Positions 1,691-11,641 of a stretch of DNA of 64,000 bases are shown piece after piece (within the stretch, counting starts at the first letter, position 1; each line of letters begins with the position of its first letter). Origin of the DNA: Isoetes taiwanensis (Eukaryota; Streptophyta; Lycopodiopsida; Isoetales; Isoetaceae); NCBI GenBank assembly GCA_021234155.1, contig JAJEKV010000028.1, positions 15,439,976-15,503,975 of the forward strand, in the 5' to 3' direction. The notes beneath the pieces were generated by a model, which searched no databases, was not told the origin of the DNA, and worked only from the letters and a program-made list of their open reading frames with translations. Position numbers and translations under genes: made by a program.

Positions 1691-3570
1691 TGTACTTGGG
1701 TCCGTTGTTAAGCTATCCACCCCCCACCACCAAAAAAGCATTTTCTTGTTTGTGTTGTCTTTTTTGTTGGTTGCCTTGGATGTGCTTGAGCTTGGTATCT
1801 AGAGTCAGTCCTTGTTTGTTTCGTTGCTTTCTTGGTTGTCTGGTTCTTGCATGGGTCGTATTAGGTAATGGTATGTGCTTTCTTTGTTCTTTCTTTCAGC
1901 TTTTTGGGTTGGTCGGTTTATGGTGTCCATCTTCATTGTCTCTATTTTTCCGTATCTAGATTAACTATCTTACGTGTCAAATCATTTTTTGGCTTTCTTA
2001 CTTGCGTGTATTTGTAAATGTATAAATTATGGGTTATTGCTCATTTTTGCAGAGTCGTCTGGTTCTTTTCTTGGGTCGGTTTGCATTTAGCTTTGTATAA
2101 TTGTCGTGGTGGCTTATCTATCTTCTTGTCGCCTATCTTATTTCTTGTTTACCTTCATTTTGAAATTGACTAGTCCTTCTAGTTTTTAGTGGTGATTGGC
2201 ATATTTGATTTAGTAGGTTCGTCCTAGTGATAGTTTCTCTCTTTGGTGGTCTATTTTATGTCTTTTTTGCTCTCTCTTTCGGATTTGAAGGTTTGAAACC
2301 CCGTCTTGTTTTGTAAGTTACGTAGTGGGTAAAAGTAGGGTTGTTAGATGTTGGTTGTATCAGGTTCCCTTGGGCCAGTTGCTGTTTACATTAGTATATT
2401 TGTCAGAGTTGATGGTTTTTTCCTTTGGTGGCCTGACCATGTATGGTTCCCTCCTTTGTGCAAATGTTGCGTTTACAGCCTTCGTTGGTTTTAGTTGCAA
2501 GGTTCTTGGTGTGGAAAAGCTTCGTGCTATGGTTCGGTTGGGGATGGGATCTCGAGTAGATGCGGATAAGAATCATTTTTTGACTTGGCGACTAGAGGGG
2601 TCAATGTCGGACTGACTTCTTGGTAGTTTTCCTCGTCTTGTCATTATGAAGGGGTGGTGCCATCTCTAGTCAACATTGATGGGGATCGTTGTCAAAACTT
2701 TGTCCACAGAGTTCAACAAGGGACTAACTACTTTGTATGTTGCTTTTTTACGCCAAGTCAGTTTTGCATTTAGTTGCTTCATTGCATTTTGGGCAATTCC
2801 TCACTATATCCTGTATTTAATCAACACATGCCGGTTGCCCCCTTTTCTTGACATTTTGGCACTTGACCTATGGACTTTAGCACGAGTTGTCGGGCGAGTC
2901 AAGTATTTCCAGTATCTTGAAGAACTTTCCCTTAGCTGCATTCGTCATGAGTTGGTGATTCATGTTAGTTCATGCCATGTTGCTTTTGGTTATTCTCGAC
3001 ACTTTCAAATCTTGTAGACATGGTTGTGGTCCATAACGTCTCTGTTTTCTTCCACAATTAGTCCTTTTGTTGCGCTTTGCTTCCATACTTAGATGTGGTC
3101 TTTTTTTTTTGCTTGGGATCTCATGTTTCTCCGTCGTTGGTCTATTGGTACCATTTGTGGTGGTCGTCTTATATTTTGGTCGTTTTGCAGGAGTTTTACA
3201 ATTGGTGGTATTTACTAGAATCATTTGGCTCATTTATACATGGCTTTTGCCAGTGCCATATCTCAGTTGGCATTTTGTGTGGGTTGAGCTATTGCATTCT
3301 TGCAGCATTGGTGCTTGTGACATTTGGTTGCAAATCTTCTTTTATATTCCTTTATGTGGCTAGTTCCATGTACTTGTGTTGACCACCTAGCCAGGTGCCC
3401 CATGCAATTCTTTTGGTTCATTGGCTTCTTTCCATTGCCTTTACTCGTTCCCTTTACTACATGACGTCCATTATTCCCTATTCCCTTTTGTCGACTGTTG
3501 TTCCATTTGTCTCGTTGAGCTCTTATGGTGTCCCTTGAGTCCTAACTCTTGCAGTCCGGGTTGTGCTTGA

Positions 3571-3599
3571 GGGTGAAAGTATGCTGGTGGGTAGCAAAA
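3571..3599 (+). repeat. Left terminal inverted repeat of the 7.7-kb transposon
   Basis: This 29-bp arm starts gggtgaaagtatgctggtgg and ends in AAAA. It is a perfect reverse complement of 11257-11285. The host word TTGA precedes it at 3567-3570. Confidence 0.9.
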
Positions 3600-3621
3600 G
3601 CATGCGTCCGGACGCATGCTT
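3598..3621. repeat. Subterminal 24-bp perfect palindrome
   Basis: A perfect palindrome centred on the tccgga core (agcatgcgtcc followed by ggacgcatgct) directly follows the left terminal repeat. No counterpart is present inside the right end. Palindromes in such a place often serve as transposase-binding or cruciform sites, but that role is inference here. Confidence 0.85.
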
Positions 3622-3886
3622 ATAGCAGGGTTTTAGCCCGCTATCAAGACACCCCCTTTTTTTTTAATCTTGGTGCCGATGGGCGAATCGCCATCATTTC
3701 TTTTTTACGCCCTTCATGTACTTTCGCCGCCCACCTCAATAAACGAGCCGTTAGGAAAATGATTGTGGGCTTTTGGCTGGATTTTCGCGCGAGTGGTGTG
3801 GTAGTACGTTGCAAATTGGATTACTTCGTCATGGCCCGCGAAATTTCTCCCTCCAATTCACTTATCCTCCCTCTCTCAGGAATTTC

Positions 3887-6800
3887 ATGGCGCTCCCTGA
3901 TACCGGCCTGGAGGCAATCACACGTTTAGCATTGGATTTTCGGCCTGATGAATCCCAATACAGTGTTCCAGATTTGTTGGATGTCAATGCAACACAGGAA
4001 ATATCACGTGAAGATCCAGTTTCCTCTGCAATTTACAAGAAATTGGATGCAAAGAAAAAGAGAATACTGATTACTTTAATAAGATGAGAAAAGCAAATAC
4101 TGAATGGGAGGATCTCGAGCATGAGACGCAGGCAAGAAATAGCCAAGCAAGTAGTTGATTACTTCAATAAGCTCACCAAAAAGCATTCACCCGAACTCAA
4201 GGCCGATGTGATGAAGAGGGTGGTTCATCACCACGAAATGGAAATCTCAGAACCTGGAATTTTGCCAAATCCAAAGGAGTGCAAGGCAGCGGGGGTGCTG
4301 CTCAACAACTTGAAACAGACAATGGCAGCCACAAAGAGGCAAAGGAACCATGATGTTTGGAGAGCCAGAACCTCGACACTGGTGATGGCTTCTTCCACAA
4401 AATCGAGATGCAATTCCACTATGGCAGGGCTGTTAGGTGCATCTAATTCTTGCTTTCATGCCTGTGCTTCTTTGTGCTTTTAAGTGCTTTTAAGTGCTTG
4501 TATCTGCTGAGTGATGCTGGATGAGATATGTTCATTGATTAATGTGCAATATTTCTTATGATAGGTTGCATGAGGTCAACAATTGCAACTGCTGCATTAA
4601 GAAAATCGGAAGCCGTCCTTGGAAATGGTCCGTGGTCTAGCTTCCAAAGGAGGTTGAGGTGCGATTCTCTCTCCCCTCGCAAAGCAAAGCATAACGTAAT
4701 TGGAAACAAAATAGCAGAGTCTCTCCTTGCAAGAAAGATGTTGTGAACACCGTTGGAGAGTCAAGCTTCAATTTTCTTATCCCTTGCACCTTATGGAGGT
4801 CACACAGTGTATAAGTTTCCATACAAATTTTTCTTCGCTATTGTTGCATAAATATTTCTAACCAACGGCCACCATTCAAATTTGAGCTATTTCAACAATA
4901 CAAAAAGGCACATCCTGAACACCTGTTTGCATAAAGGCTTTCGAAGTTGAAGCCTATTTATGTAAAGAAAGTATCGTAAAAATATGCTTGAGGAAACCCT
5001 TGATGTTGCATATACCATATGAAGTTGGAGTATGCCGACATTGAGTTAGCCCCCCGAATGCATTAAGGTCGTACCAAAAAACCGGATTTCATGGTGAAGA
5101 GTGCAAGTGCACCTGCGAGGTCTGGTGGACTGGTGAGACGGTCCGCCAGCCAATATATGTATGACTCAACCAATGAGCCGAGACGGTTCACGGAGGGTCA
5201 GTGGTTTGCAACAAGAGCGAGGGTGAAGAATGGCATAAACATGATCGCTTGATGCGCATATGTCGGCGTGGGCATAAAAACTCTTCCTATATGTCCAAGA
5301 GAGAGAGAGAATCATGAGTTCTTGCTTGAATGGAAGACGCTTGAAAAGGTAATACTCTTTTATTGCATCTTTCGCAACATGCCGATATGTCTTTGCCATC
5401 CGGCCGAAAACCGCTTTTGTGCTTTCAACTTGCGCTAATCTTCTGTTTTATGCTACAGACCTTGTTACAGATTCCAGTGGAGACAGAAGAGGCTGGTGGA
5501 GTTGCAGCCTGCGTTACCAAGGAGGTGCCAGGTGGCAGCAGAAAGAAAAGAGCCAATGCCACCAAGAAGGGAAACAAAAGTAAGAAATCCAAGGTAGTTT
5601 GGTGGGACCTGGCTGAAGCAGACAAGTTGAGAAGAAGGGAAACAAAAGTAAGAAATCCAAGCAAGCTGGTGGGACACAGACTGAAGCTGCAGCACAAGAC
5701 GAGACCTCAAATGGCAAGGGGAAAAAAAAAGAAAGGACCAAAGCCAGTTCCTCGATTGTCTTACAAGAGAACGGCAGTGAAGGATTTCATTTCATATATG
5801 TGTTCCACATTGAAGATATTCGTGCCACACAATTCTGTGGGCTAGATGGCGTGCCATGCAATTCGTGAGTTGCCCGACAATATCCAAGATGACACCATTG
5901 TTTCGTAATTGATTTTGCAGAGAATTACAAAGATAAAAATACAAAGGAGGTTCAAAGCCAGCATTGGCACAATGACCAGATAACAATTCTCGTCCACATC
6001 ACGTATAGGATGGACATCAGTTCTGGGATCAGAAAGCTATTGAAGGAAACCCATTTTTACTTGAGTGATGACAAGCTTCATGACACTCTTTTGTGCAAAG
6101 ACTGCCTTAGAAAGCACAATTCATGGCTTGTATCAAATGGTGTAGATTTCTCCGGGCATATAGTTTGGTCGATGGTTGTTCTAGCCAATTCAAATCTGCC
6201 CGCCATTCTATTTCCTACCAAGATATCACCATGAGCTAGGGAAGGAAATAGTATGGAATTTCATTGGGACAGCCCATGGTAAGGGAGAGCACGATGGGCA
6301 AGGGGCGGTCCTTAAAGGGGCATTCACTAGAGAGCAGCTCAAGTATGATGGGGTGAGATTTAGGGGTGTTGCTGATGCATGTGAATTCGCAACTCACCGG
6401 AATGAAGGTACCAACAACGGGGACATCAAAAGGTATTATGCTTTCATCTGGCGTGATTCTGTTGGTAGTCTTTGTAAACTGGCTGTAATGTCTTTGAATA
6501 GTGCTTTCATCCGCTTTAAAGTCTTTATCTGTGAACTGTTGTCTTGTGATGAGTAGTCTTTGATTATGCGCCCGTGAGATGCAATACTTGTTGTTTCCTT
6601 GCGTGTACTTCGGTAATTGGAAGGATGATGTTGATAGGACGCAACCACCGGATCGCGTGCCGTGGTGGAAGGGACCAAGCAAATACACAAAGATCCTGAC
6701 ATACTTGGCCAAATCAAGCACAAGGGTGGCTCATAGAGGTTTAAGTTGTTTCGTGGTAACTGCTTTGAAAGGAAATCGGGTCATCTTGTGTGAACAAGCA

Positions 6801-7265
6801 CAGATTGAAGAATTGGAAATATGTTACACTAAAGCCAGATAAGTCTACTGGTGAAGGTACTGAAGACGAAATCGATGAGGCATTTTTTGAAGGTGATGGA
6901 GAATGGCTATCCGGAAACGTAGAGGAAGGTGATAACTTTGTCGTTGTTGTGGAAAGGAAAATCAGGAGAATGCAGATTTCTATGTGGTTAAATGTGTTAA
7001 GCCGAGGCATATCCTTGACAGAATTGTCAAGGATAGCTGGGGTCAGACCTTCAATGTGGATGAACATATATTGGCTAGTTTGTACTATGCTGCCCAGCCA
7101 GATGGTAGTTGGGAGCTACTTGAAGACAGAGGCCTGACTTTCCAGTACAGTCATCACGTATCAGCTATCAAGTTTGAGATGAATCAGATTCCTGGCACCA
7201 ACAGATTTTCCCTTGAACAGGCTACTCACCAGATGATCCTTGACAGTCTGCCATATGAAGGTTGA
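3887..7265 (+). pseudogene. Transposase-like gene remnant (SDGC..QFK / HGKGEHDG type)
   Basis: This is a chain of + strand coding pieces in different frames. An N-terminal piece starts at ATG 3887 (MALPDTGLEAIT...) and another spans 4121-4483. A Lys-rich stretch covers about 5460-5845 and includes a duplicated 28-bp segment. Then come HWHNDQITILVHI (near 5960-6005), SDDKLHDTL (near 6065), DGCSSQFKSA (near 6171) and NFIGTAHGKGEHDG (6255-6297), followed by GAVLKGAFTREQLK. A C-terminal domain (6790-7265) ends in SWGQTFNVDEHILASLYY and the stop after LDSLPYEG. I recall these motifs from repetitive transposase-like proteins of seedless plants and other eukaryotes, but I cannot name the family with certainty. 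Several frameshifts and in-frame stops separate the pieces. Some gaps may be introns, such as 4490-4560, but the break in the DGC..QFK segment is a true frameshift as read. It lies in the left half of the TIR element and is probably its transposase. Confidence 0.6.
5566..5661 (+). repeat. 28-bp direct repeat inside the Lys-rich transposase segment
   Basis: The words 'gaagggaaacaaaagtaaga' plus 'aatccaag' occur near 5567 and again near 5634. Each encodes a Lys-rich tract. The second copy is read in a different frame, which shows a local duplication that may itself have shifted the frame. Confidence 0.7.
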
Positions 7266-7560
7266 ATATGCTTGGCCTAGTTGTTTTATCATTGTAACAA
7301 ATCTGTAGTTGTGTACTTGTCTCAAATTTTGATCATTGTATTGGAGACAATGCCTCTAAGACAATGTTTGTAGTATTGGTTTGAATTATTGGAGTATTTT
7401 AGTATTGGAAACAATGCTTGTAGTATTGGAGAGTAAGCTTGATATATATTACAGAAAATTGTACACTCAAGATTAGAACATCACTCAAGATCACTCAATC
7501 ATCAAGATAAGACAAAGTAATCATACATATATATTACAAAAAGTACTTGTACAATGGTTA
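7266..7560. other. Intergenic convergence zone of the transposon, AT-rich with short repeats
   Basis: This lies between the 3' ends of the two convergent transposon genes. It contains repeated words such as tagtattgga and acaatg and no ORF I recognise. It would hold both polyadenylation regions, but no clear AATAAA signal was assigned. Confidence 0.5.
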
Positions 7561-8334
7561 CTTCATGAGTCATCGGTCTTGAGTCATCTTTGCCGGTCGC
7601 CAGAAGGGTGCCCAAAGAAATGCCTTTGTTGTACTCTAATGGAGAATTGAGGATATAGTAGGCGAGACAAGATAGTTGTTGAGGCAAAGAATCCAAAGAC
7701 TACAACCTGTCTCCTCTTCCAACCATGCATCGCTGATGTCAACCTTGTGAGATCGTTTCCTTTTCCTGACAAAAGATGAGAAGACAAGTATTCCAAAGTT
7801 GGACACACAAACTTCTCGCAAAAAGTTGTCCTCTTCTTGTCCCTTGAAAGGCATAATGGGAAGGGTTGTGTGTGCGGGGTTTAGAAACCCTTTGTGTAGG
7901 TCATCATCAACCAAGAAAATCATACCATGATTTTGAGGAAAATCCTCAAGTACAACCTTCAACTCCTTGAAAAAAATGCTTTTTTCTGGTCTGTTTGGAT
8001 GCTTGCATGCATAGCAATGCTCTTGACCATAAACCTTCAAGAATCTGGTCTCGCAAATCGGGAACAATGCATCCACCATATCCCTTGTATTCAAGTAGAG
8101 AAGCACTCCAAATAACAATATCAAACCTCTGCGAGTGCCCACTCCACAAACTCATGATACCAGGTCCGCAAATGAGGTACTTATTTGCGTTTCTTTACAA
8201 CATGCTTGGTTTGTGGTGGAGGCAAGATTTTCCCGCTCATTCTCCTCTGTTGTAGTATGCATGCCGATTACACCATTTACGTCCAGCACCATCAACTTCC
8301 GTCTGGGTGTCCATCCTTGGATGTTTGCAACCAC
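7560..8334 (-). pseudogene. FCP1/NIF-type HAD phosphatase-like domain, frameshifted
   Basis: Reading the - strand gives RRKLMVLDVNGVI (8265-8298), then HEFVEW near 8140, RFDIVIWSAS (near 8115), NTRDMVDALFP, KVYGQEHCYA, SIFFKELKVVLEDFP (near 7980-7935), MIFLVDDDLHKGFLNP (near 7920-7875) and FKGQEEDNFL. Order and spacing match the FCP1-homology (NLI-interacting factor) HAD fold: nucleophile motif, WSA segment, then the VDD motif IV. In motif I the usual DxDGT reads DVNGV, so the second Asp (general acid/base) is Asn and phosphatase activity is doubtful even if the gene were intact. At least two frameshifts occur between the WSA segment and what follows. It is the C-terminal part of the - strand gene in the TIR element. 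Host capture or a long-standing element gene are both possible. Confidence 0.6.
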
Positions 8335-10420
8335 TGTCGATGTGTCTTTGCATCGTGCTTGTCTGTCTTTGCAATGTGTCTTTGGACTCTGGAAGTGCTA
8401 TCGGGAGGTGTCTTTGGACGATGTTGCAACCTCTTTGGACTCTGCTTTATCTTTGCTACCAGATGATGGAGAGTGCTGATAGCCATAGTCAGATTCATCC
8501 TTATTGGTATCTCCCCGCCCCAATGTATGGGTGTTTCCCCTGGCCATCGGTAACCCTTGCTTTGCCTTTGTCCTCGGTTTCTTCATTCACGACTGCCTTG
8601 TTCTCTTGCATGCAAGGATGAGCTGCAATTAACAACCCAAATTCTCAAAACACATTCTGAAATATAACAGGGATAACGTGCATCTTTTGTATGTTAGAGT
8701 TTGTCTTTGGCACTTCTTTATCTCAGATTGTCTTCTTCATCGATTCACTAAGTATAACCATTGGTGCCTTCTTTTCCTGCCGGATAAGTTTTTGAAGCCT
8801 AAGTTGAATAATCCAAACCAAAATTTGCACATTAAAGGTGGAATAAAACAGGGATCAAATATATTAATTGTTTGAACAAAAACCTTTTGGTGATGGTTTA
8901 GGGTTGTCTTGCAAAATCAAGGTTTGCTTGCACGAAATACATAAGGCAAAATTACATTAGCCATGTTTTTCTTTCCAAATGCTACTTCTATGGGGACGCC
9001 CTCATCAAGGTCATTTTCCTCGACTCACCCTCACTTTCTTCTTCCACAACCTTCCTGCCCTTGACCGTGTCAACTTGTTCACCGCTTAACGATCGCCTCG
9101 AACTGGACGTCCGACATCTTCGCCATCGTTTTCCTTCCCCGCAAAGAACAAGCGGTGTTAGAGGAGGCCTTTGTAAGAGGCAAAATGCGGCAGAATTTGG
9201 AACTATACTATAATTGTTGGCACCATCACTACTACTTGAATCTCCCTTGGATTCAAAGATGCTTTAGTGTCTCCAAAGACCTTTGCCTTTGCCAAGTCTT
9301 TGCAGGCCAAGAGGCCGGTAGTTTGTCGTCAATGTCTACAAAGACCTTCCGATCTTTGTCAATTCAAAATCGAGCACGAAAATAGGCATGTACCTTTTTC
9401 CCATGTCTTGGCGTGGAGTGTGAACCCTTGTGGACTTGTGCTTGGCTGATCCCGGGTCCTTTTACTTTTTGTGTGATTTGTTTGTTTTCCTTTTCCTGCG
9501 CCGCTACCGTGAGTTGTGTCTACATGCTCATCAACATCAATTATCTTCTTCTCGGTTTTGTGAGTTGTTCCAAAGATGCAACACTTCCTGCTTCTTGTAT
9601 TAAGCTTACCTATTTCCTGCACTAAGCCGGTAGGAATGGTCTCTGCACTTTCGGCAAAGATCCTTTTTCCATGAGCAACCGGTGCGGCTAACGTGATAAT
9701 GATGTCCACATTTCATCCGCAGTCGAGGGTGTAATCATCCCGAATGCAAGACCACGGTGGAGCATCTCTCCTCATTTCCAATTGGCAATCGGAATGGTAT
9801 TGGAGTGATCTTGACCACCGATCATTTCTCTTGGTCATCTCCCTCGGCTGGCGACATTCTCAAGTGTCTTCTTTGGGCTTTTGCAAGGAGGGACTCGTTG
9901 TTGGCAATCTCGCCAGCTTAGTGCAGCCACCTTTTCTACACAGGTTTGATCTATTGGCCCGCCCCCATTTCAAGTAGGGACTTCAACATATATTCTCGCC
10001 ATATCTTTCTCCCTCTCCAAAGAATGAATCTCGTGAGACACCGCATTAGGATCCGGCAAAGGCTTGAAGACGTGCAATATTATCCTTTATGGTCTTCAAC
10101 TTCCCCTCTGCGGTAGAAGAAGCTTCCCTTTGCCTCAGTTATGCAGCTGTTCCTTCTTTGACACTAGGTCATTCTCGCTTTGCAATTTTAGGGCTTCCCG
10201 TGATATCTTGGATCATGCTTTCCGTGACGGGAAATATTTTCCCCATAAGCCGAGAATGTTCTTTGGACACATTGAAGTACTCTGAATGACAACCTCCTTC
10301 TAATTTTACAGCGATTACTGGCGAGGCCGGCTTTTCTGCAATGCTTTCGTGTGTCGTTGTTCTCCGTGATTTGCTTTGGGCTCTCTTTGTGTTCACGTGG
10401 CCACTTGGCTTTGGGGTTCA
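8335..10420 (-). pseudogene. Lys/Ser-rich N-terminal part of the transposon's HAD-domain gene
   Basis: Upstream of the HAD domain the - strand reads as hydrophilic pieces. One is a segment with VIAVKLEGGCHSEYFNVSKE and IQDITGSPKIAKRE (about 10396-10169). Another is a Lys/His/Thr-rich tract (about 9709-9359: KTEKKIIDVDEHVDTTHG, KGKQTNHTKSKRTRDQPS). The last is a Ser/Lys/Glu-rich linker (about 8586-8398: SSGSKDKAESKEVATSSKDT) leading into the HAD domain. Frames change between pieces and I recognise no named domain. They may form one gene with introns or a decayed reading frame. The order suggests a long, possibly partly disordered or coiled N-terminus. Confidence 0.4.
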
Positions 10421-11256
10421 CTCTTGACCTTGCTCGAATAGGCTCTCTTTTTTTGCCACCACCTGCCCAATTGACCTTGAAATTTTCTCGATCCCGCTTG
10501 GCCCTCTTGCGCTTGTTGAATGCAAATAAAAAGGAAACCGTCTTCCTTACTTCTCTTTCTTCAATCCTTCGGGTATATCTTGCTCAACGGCTCAATTAGA
10601 GCTTCTCAAGGTGCTCTGGCCTTATTTTGTCGATGGATGTCTTGTTCGAATGACACCATTGGTGTCCCAAACCTCATTATATTCTCTCATGCGGATATCA
10701 CATCCGTTCGAAATTGAGAGGGATGCACACCCTCGCTTGATAGACCCGCGTAGGCATGGAAGTCCTCCTCGGCTTCGACAATCAGCCCGCCGGGTCTTAG
10801 GGGCACGCTCATCCGGGCTGAAAGAAATCAAGAAAAACAAATTAACAGGCACCATAAGCCATCAAAATTGGATTTGCATTTTGCTTACCCCTGCGATGGC
10901 ATCCATTGGAATTGCCGGCCGAGCCCGATTAACAACCTTCACCACCATAGTTTTTTTGGCGTTTGAGTTTTGGAATACTAAGCTTGGAGTGAATCCGAAA
11001 TTCTAGAGCTTCTTCTCCATGGGCTATTTGGCCGAGTAGCAAAAGGTGGGGAGCACGGTTCGAAATTACAAATTCAAAGTTCAAGCTACCCTTCGGGTCA
11101 CAAATCATTAGTTACGGTGGGGCGGTAAGAAGGTTATGATTGAAACGGTACGCCCCCTATGTGAAGTGACGGGCATAGCATAGGTTACACTTCAATTGGT
11201 GAAGGGTGGAAAAAATAGTATGAAGGGTGCTGGTGCTGGGTGCTGGGGTCGCGTTT
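10421..11256. other. Right subterminal region of the transposon
   Basis: I saw no convincing gene. Candidate frames on both strands lack recognisable motifs. It would contain the promoter and 5' end of the - strand gene. A short GGTGCTGG-type repeat (gaagggtgctggtgctgggtgctggg, read in pieces) lies at 11222-11248, just inside the right terminal repeat. Confidence 0.45.
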
Positions 11257-11285
11257 TTTTGCTACCCACCAGCATACTTTCACCC
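11257..11285 (-). repeat. Right terminal inverted repeat of the 7.7-kb transposon
   Basis: This is a perfect reverse complement of 3571-3599. The sequence TTGAG follows immediately and matches the left flank. Confidence 0.9.
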
Positions 11286-11641
11286 TTGAGTTGCTTCCAT
11301 ACGTCATTATGCTGCTCTGCTTGTCCGAGTTGTCCTGAGTTGTCCCATCTGTCTGATTGCTCGTAGCATTCTTGTCTCATGATTTCTCAGCAGTAGTTTG
11401 TTCACTTGCGTATACATGATTTGTTCCTCTCACTCGTGCTTTTTCCCTGGTCTTTGCAGTGGTAGTTTGTTCGATTGCCCAATTTATTTCCCTCGCCTTT
11501 CCATTTCGCAGCGATTTTCTAGTGCCTCTTTTCTTTATCCCAGTTCTCCATCCATTTCATTTGTTTTGCTTCCCTTTTTTGCTATAAGATTCTTGAGCTT
11601 TGTTTCTAGGTGTATGTATAGGTAGATAAGTGCATGCTTGT

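Follow-up and report, generated by a model that had tools for sequence, protein, structure and literature searches.

Does a phosphatase-like gene that lies between the inverted ends of a plant DNA transposon belong to the transposon or to the host? This question is raised by a stretch of 64,000 nucleotides (hereafter the window) of the Isoetes taiwanensis genome (assembly GCA_021234155.1, contig JAJEKV010000028.1, positions 15,439,976 to 15,503,975), in which positions 3571-11285 constitute a single, decayed, 7,715-bp copy of a multi-copy transposon with terminal inverted repeats (TIRs). An original prediction, based on the letters of the window, had seen here a transposase remnant and, converging on it, a gene for a haloacid dehalogenase (HAD) protein of the FCP1/NIF type, and had proposed that HAD is a gene of the element if other copies share this layout. 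We regard it as nearly certain that HAD is indeed an element gene. We also consider it likely that the element as a whole is a TIR transposon with two converging genes, one for the transposase and the other for a spliced accessory protein, in which a RING-like part is followed by the HAD domain.

The ends of the element were searched for in the entire genome (1,658,258,908 bases, 1,110 contigs). The 29-bp TIRs reported earlier are perfect (29/29) and are embedded in a 40-nt inverted pair with 90% complementarity. A 30-nt end pattern was found, with at most two mismatches, at 206 forward and 197 reverse places, whereas the same pattern with reversed letters was found at none (0 + 0); given some 400 places against an empty control, the repeats at the ends are not due to chance. 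Among the first 100 listed places, facing ends 5-8 kb apart define 13 loci, which together with the window form a set of 14 TIR-paired copies spanning 5.25-8.0 kb. All 14 are flanked outside the TIRs by identical 4-bp direct repeats, and target-site duplications (TSDs) of 4 bp were likewise read by eye in the flanks of loci L015, L023, L024 and L026. In the window the TSD is TTGA, one of the two flank words offered by the original prediction; the other, CTTGAG, includes a C to the left and a G to the right that are not part of the duplication. When the flanks of the window copy were fused at one TTGA, the joined sequence was matched across the join at 40/40 scored candidates (from 154 first-look candidates), with 91-95% identity. 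Empty versions of the insertion site therefore exist, and the window element has jumped into another repeat, with exactly these ends. Rough first-look counts give 9,340 candidate sites for the transposase and 2,102 for HAD in the genome. A subterminal 20-bp palindrome, judged from its sequence, is a possible binding site of the transposase.

HAD is present in 12 of the 14 TIR-paired copies, in L003 only partially (59 residues). The same repeats without HAD, which the original prediction had named as speaking against an element gene, occur in two copies only, L010 and L011, both shortened by internal deletion. In clade a, for which 150 HAD and 150 transposase matches were compared (best-scored candidates only; 153 matches were reported for one search), 61/150 HAD matches have a transposase match within 6 kb and 58 of these 61 pairs are convergent, the gap measuring 1.0-1.4 kb in 47 of the 58, whereas chance alone would give about 0.16 pairs. 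The HAD of L018 is a distant relative with 29% identity, and its type shows the same arrangement: 66/150 matches have a transposase of their own kind within 6 kb, 66/66 are convergent, and the median distance is 1.46 kb. Clade b or its relatives account for 62 of these pairs and clade c' for the remaining four; these comparisons used 150 of 152, 150 of 151 and 140 of 175 matches from lists of best-scored candidates (after removal of unlisted rows and of additional pieces from one and the same place), together with 64 NIF matches chosen because they could not be clearly placed with the host or with clade a. The HADs of clade c' (L023, L024) are 36-37% identical to those of clade b and are convergent with their transposase as well; their elements have TIRs beginning with GGGTG and TSDs TCTT and AATA. 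For ten of the 24 short HAD loci in the alignment, a transposase is listed at a distance of at most 6 kb. Other copies share the layout on which the earlier proposal depended.

A fourth transposase clade (L014, L015, L025; the TIRs of L015 are 27 bp long and begin with GGGTC) differs in this respect. HAD hidden Markov models gave no significant match in any of its 7 loci (chance matches, E 22 and 28), four of which extend no further than about 5 kb past the transposase on its downstream side. With a query from this clade, 3/140 transposase matches lie within 6 kb of a listed HAD; two of them stem from HAD-bearing clades caught by the query, and one is not convergent. In the transposase tree (14 rows) the 11 HAD-bearing and 3 HAD-less rows are split at 100/99, and for this small sample one gain or one loss of HAD would suffice as an explanation.

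The left halves of L001, L002, L003, L004, L010 and L013 share 81-90% identity with the window copy (3511-11345 compared), while the right halves of the same six loci match it in scattered pieces only, many at 72-80%; this contrast suggests that clade a holds mosaic subfamilies, perhaps as a result of recombination between elements. The HAD-less element at L025 contains a 253-bp inverted-repeat element (L025:5103-5355), whose ends resemble the TIR and subterminal sequence of the window family and which is probably a miniature inverted-repeat derivative (MITE). The HAD-bearing element at L023 seems to lie within a longer open frame, which belongs to a different repeat or gene and whose two halves are found on either side of it (106-1080 and 8400-9377, minus strand).

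What kind of protein is encoded by the HAD gene? All four ordered motifs recognised on the minus strand by the original prediction are real. They do not, however, lie in one frame: VIWSAS is shifted relative to the other three and a stop codon lies between LDVNGVI and FFKELK, so that the window copy of the second gene is broken. The proposed check against the PF03031 (NIF) profile gave 21.3 bits for the C-terminal open reading frame (ORF) of the window, just short of the gathering score of 21.8, and values above it in less decayed copies (L013, 71.2 bits, E 1e-19; L018, 75.4 bits). The structural model (predicted template modelling score, pTM, 0.65) has its best match in the Protein Data Bank (PDB) with SCP1 (Z 17.7, 2.4 Å, 161 aligned residues), the SCP1 D98A mutant structure 3l0y standing first among tied top matches, followed by CTDNEP1 (Z 16.6), Tim50 (15.5), UBLCP1 (15.2) and FCP1 (14.7), whereas general HAD proteins reach only Z ~11-12.

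The catalytic motif I of PF03031 phosphatases is DxDx(T/V), with the second Asp serving as acid/base. Among 31 aligned element HADs, 29 have DxN, one has DxY (L040), one DxK (L024) and none DxD, the Asn being aligned with the second Asp of the SCP-type motif. All of 8 presumed host NIF genes have DxD, although these were high-scoring picks and therefore lean toward the canonical motif; L034, in the alignment of element and host NIF proteins, reads DMDQ. The altered motif I noticed in the window is consequently not damage of this one copy, a possibility that its occurrence in 29/31 HADs rules out. Besides the nucleophile Asp, the element HADs retain Ser in motif II, Lys in motif III and Asp in motif IV; in one alignment, this Lys and the first Asp of motif IV are present without exception (9/9 rows). 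The HAD alignment did not include L049, L059 and L066 (no motif I in the longest frame), the HADs of L001-L012, L020 and L021, or that of the window copy, and six clade-a rows are absent from the HAD tree. It could be argued that the element encodes an active phosphatase, acting on a host or element protein despite the Asn in motif I, because the nucleophile and the key residues of motifs III and IV persist and the nearest folds, SCP1 and CTDNEP1, are both phosphatases. With the second Asp of motif I found in 0/31 element HADs, however, we do not class the protein as an active phosphatase of the RNA polymerase II C-terminal domain and consider enzymatic activity of this ordinary kind rather unlikely. 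A role of the HAD domain in binding or trapping a phosphorylated partner, suggested by the replacement of the acid/base Asp while the other motifs stay, is a reading for which we see the balance as even.

Numerous further NIF genes, which presumably belong to the host, occur in the genome, with top matches up to 196 bits. One of them, L017:3963-5267 (minus strand), encodes a 435-aa NIF + BRCT protein with DxD motif (FCP1/CPL-like) and probably represents a host gene family with several copies. A repeated NIF family was found at L016:3516-7488 (minus strand) and L045:2112-6170, two copies with 93-95% identity over their main parts, with motif I DMNGVL and DxN in 5/5 rows. We did not adopt this family as part of the element, as its other ORFs match neither the transposase nor the RING proteins; the family may represent another mobile element, not related to the present one, that has a HAD of the DxN type.

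The HAD domain does not appear to stand alone. In L022, the RING frame, two small exons and the HAD exon can be joined to a single frame of 677 aa through three predicted GT-AG introns (96, 100 and 110 nt; phases 1, 2, 2). Two predicted introns in L023 (103 and 97 nt; phases 1, 2) give a joined frame of 647 aa, and three in L026 (98, 80 and 82 nt; phases 1, 2, 2) a frame of 305 aa from the RING tail to HAD. The GTGAGT donor is kept in 7/7 aligned copies of one clade-a subfamily and in 9/9 of the subfamily of the window. Matches of the L022 HAD cover 8520-7663 and 8188-7604 of the window, and the start of the HAD exon was placed by the aligned acceptor. The second gene also carries a probable coiled coil, judged from weak profile matches and the make-up of its ORFs. 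Judged from the splice sites, HAD is very probably the C-terminal exon of the second gene, fused to the RING-like part by splicing, and its placement at the C-terminus of the converging gene in the original prediction was apt.

If intron 1 remains unspliced, a RING-only frame results that ends at a stop codon before the first small exon (L022, L023, L026). The element would accordingly yield a long RING-HAD protein and, with intron 1 retained, a short RING-only protein. The acidic tail of the HAD-less L025 resembles by eye the short tail of clade a, which may indicate that the HAD exons were added behind an older stop codon. One could also explain the stop of the RING frame past the donor by HAD being a separate third gene with its own promoter and first exon, in particular as the short RING tails of clades b and c' look alike by eye, so that the short form is probably coding, and as the HAD frame of L023 has a long upstream extension. 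However, an acceptor-like AG stands at the opening of the HAD frame in L022, L023 and L026, and the joined frames are continuous in the same three loci with the same pattern of phases, which makes a third gene improbable in comparison with a RING-HAD fusion.

Has this fusion partner been maintained, or has it only been carried along? A comparison of nonsynonymous and synonymous substitution rates (dN/dS) across copies, proposed at the outset, gave low values in divergent HAD pairs. In clade b the median is 0.25 (19 pairs), with 0.13-0.31 in the 17 pairs with dS >0.5, and clade-a HADs compared with L064 give 0.13-0.24 (19 pairs, dS 0.8-1.2). Across all HAD comparisons, some dS values come close to saturation (up to 3.0). 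In the pair L018/L026, dN/dS is 0.21 for the transposase and 0.31 for HAD. HAD therefore seems to have been kept by purifying selection in related elements over long evolutionary time. The opposite view is that HAD is a passive passenger, i.e. a host gene fragment that was captured once, as in Pack-type elements, and copied without function. It may be invoked that the transposase clade without HAD (7/7 loci) and two TIR-paired copies dispense with the domain, and that many copies are frameshifted. Purifying selection at high divergence, the same position and orientation of HAD in three clades, in-frame joins with matching intron phases in the same number of clades, and the retained residues of motifs III and IV are all contrary to this view, and we hold it to be very improbable. 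That the repeats are coincidental and HAD an ordinary host gene, as the many other NIF genes might suggest, has a negligible probability, since coincidence is refuted by the end-pattern control, the TSDs in 14/14 copies and the empty sites, and a single-copy host gene, the second objection foreseen by the original prediction, is excluded by the ~400 end sites, the genome-wide copies of HAD, the empty sites and the HAD tree, in which the element HADs and a sample of 8 presumed host NIF genes fall on different sides of a split supported at 100/100.

The transposase-like remnant of the plus strand was likewise borne out; it extends over 3755-7262 of the window in several frames. The N-terminal exon of L022 matches 3755-4498 with 88% identity and exons of L023 match 4112-4819 and 4878-5269 (tblastn), and the core remnant, split across several ORFs, is 52% identical to L022 over 360 aa. 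A helix-turn-helix (HTH) in the N-terminal part of the L023 protein is a weak Pfam match under the cut-off. In the 14-row alignment (L023 numbering), D181 is invariant and D76, E220 and D222 are at least 90% conserved; L015 has E at the first acidic site. An AlphaFold2 model of low confidence (mean predicted local distance difference test, pLDDT, 52.7; pTM 0.52) shows the core order b-b-b-a-b-a-b with the last helix after the third motif, which is the RNase H-like order, and its PDB matches are weak and mixed, including Argonaute (Z 8.0) and retroviral integrases (Z ~7). The alignment and the model thus suggest a transposase of the DDE/D type. No transposase family was found for it in Pfam or NCBIfam, where the matches were weak and unrelated, and a PDB sequence search returned 0 matches; none of 7 pattern matches in IMG/VR and of 34 in GTDB genomes was confirmed as a relative, and in the structure comparison (VIA-align) RNase H-like enzymes were mixed with unrelated folds and no known transposase stood out. 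Upstream of the transposase core lies a tandem Lys-rich repeat (KKGNKSKKSK type; window 5564-5619 and 5632-5687), the unit number of which varies among copies.

Several observations weigh against the interpretation as a transposon with a transposase and a RING-HAD accessory gene. The window copy itself is dead, a pseudogene. No listed transposase lies within 6 kb of 89/150 clade-a HAD matches, 84/150 matches of the L018 type, 51/64 picked NIF matches and 14/24 short HAD loci including L064; the lists contain the best-scored candidates, and loci of this kind were attributed to the element solely because of their similarity. The RING-like part, in spite of its visible Cys/His spacing, scores under every Pfam cut-off (best PF13639, 21.4 of 27.3 bits in L010; 16.0 in L024), the RING frame of L026 is broken upstream of its tail, and several decayed copies, that of the window included, have damaged acceptors or donors. 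The splice joins are predictions, and because GT and AG dinucleotides, and hence single GT/AG pairs, are common, support for the fusion comes mainly from joins with matching phases in three clades. The model of the transposase is weak, its top PDB match (Z 8.3) is a designed protein, and ribosomal proteins appear at similar Z. Group b does not form a single clade in the HAD tree, where the L016-type family, with a long branch, is nested among the element HADs, although a grouping of the element HADs to its exclusion is not rejected (p-AU 0.286, approximately unbiased test). Within clade a the median dN/dS of HAD is 0.49 (188 pairs) and within clade c' 0.48 (6 pairs); low values at high divergence with higher ones among recent copies fit selection during the active life of the elements and later decay. 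Finally, dS of L018/L026 is 0.67 for HAD and 0.28 for the transposase, so that the histories of the two genes are imperfectly matched, which suggests exchange between elements.

Table 1. Features of the transposon copy in the window (positions of the window; strand as read).
Feature	Position	Strand	Evidence
Target-site duplication TTGA, left	3567-3570		Flank comparison of 14 copies; empty sites
Left TIR, 29 bp, begins GGGTG	3571-3599	+	Inverted-repeat search, genome-wide pattern search, tblastn recheck
20-bp subterminal palindrome adjoining left TIR	3600-3619		Same word after TIR in 10/14 copies (by eye)
Transposase remnant, N-terminal exons (HTH-like, Cys-rich), several frames	3755-5269	+	tblastn with L022, L023
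Transposase catalytic core remnant, broken (motifs DFAENY, WSDGC, HGKGEHDG)	5447-6433	+	tblastn, alignment, model
Transposase C-terminal exon remnant	6543-7262	+	tblastn, 57% to L022 over 247 aa
HAD exon, NIF-type domain, motif I LDVNGVI, frameshifted, ends approximate	7604-8604	-	tblastn with L022
HAD motif LVDDDLHKGFLNP	7914-7876	-	Window ORFs
HAD motif FFKELKVVL	7974-7948	-	Window ORFs
HAD motif VIWSAS	8116-8099	-	Window ORFs
HAD motif LDVNGVI	about 8286-8266	-	Window ORFs
Predicted small linker exon S2, ends approximate; donor after S2 reads AT in window copy	8684-8776	-	9-copy alignment
Predicted small linker exon S1, ends approximate; preceding acceptor damaged in window copy	8884-8931	-	9-copy alignment
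Conserved 5' splice donor GAGG^GTGAGTC ending RING exon	9022-9032	-	Alignment of copies
RING-like zinc-finger part of second gene, decayed	9378-9818	-	tblastn with L022
N-terminal part of second gene, decayed	10369-10834	-	tblastn with L022 exon
Right TIR, 29 bp	11257-11285	-	Inverted-repeat search and recheck
Target-site duplication TTGA, right	11286-11289		Flank comparison; empty sites

Among known transposons, the Sola superfamily invites comparison, as it combines 4-bp TSDs, TIRs and a size of several kb with a DDD-type transposase and is known from a moss but seemingly uncommon in flowering plants (PMC10741241). The element described here shares the 4-bp TSD, the TIRs, the size and a DDD/E core, a likeness at the level of general description, whereas this description of Sola (PMC10741241), as far as considered, names no second gene of the RING-HAD type. 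With SCP/CTDSP, CTDNEP1, UBLCP1 and FCP1 the element HAD shares the PF03031 domain (71-75 bits), the fold (Z 14-18) and the nucleophile Asp together with Lys in motif III and Asp in motif IV; in contrast to the DxD of SCP/FCP1-type phosphatases it has DxN, and it is transposon-borne and apparently fused behind a RING-like protein. Tim50 of the mitochondrial presequence translocase, which has the NIF fold in common with the element HAD, is a precedent for this fold in a binding role, but it is a cellular gene that differs in its context and in its set of motifs. Host-like accessory genes in transposons are known from ULP1-bearing Mutator elements and from fungal KDZ elements bearing TET/JBP, which likewise keep a host-type domain that modifies protein or DNA beside the transposase. 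Here, the domain is a NIF-type HAD and occurs across several divergent clades of one transposase family. Our literature searches brought up no relevant report of a transposon with a gene for a NIF, FCP1 or HAD phosphatase, and for a NIF-type HAD in the accessory protein of a TIR transposon we found no precedent.

How might such a protein serve the element? The DDE/D transposase would cut and paste the element through its TIRs, and the second protein would act as a RING/coiled-coil accessory factor in two predicted splice forms. As a pseudo-phosphatase of the docking or trap type, its HAD domain may bind a phosphorylated partner or turn it over slowly, and candidates for this partner are the RNA polymerase II tail or other host transcription machinery, the transposase, or a silencing factor. 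In its most specific form, which we put forward tentatively and consider doubtful as a whole, an alternatively spliced RING/coiled-coil protein with an SCP-like pseudo-phosphatase would dock element proteins on a phosphorylated partner such as the RNA polymerase II tail and thereby tie transposition, or the evasion of silencing, to the transcription of the host in a deep lineage of plant transposons.

TIR transposons usually need a transposase only, sometimes together with one DNA-binding helper. The present lineage, with thousands of candidate sites, appears to keep a helper that ends in a relative of the phosphatases of the RNA polymerase tail, and the HAD of this helper has a fixed change in its active site and is seemingly under purifying selection. 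In genome annotation, HAD genes of the element could be mistaken for host phosphatases. As a sister clade of the transposase is without HAD, the gain or loss of a signalling-type domain by a transposon can be compared inside the genome of a single plant.

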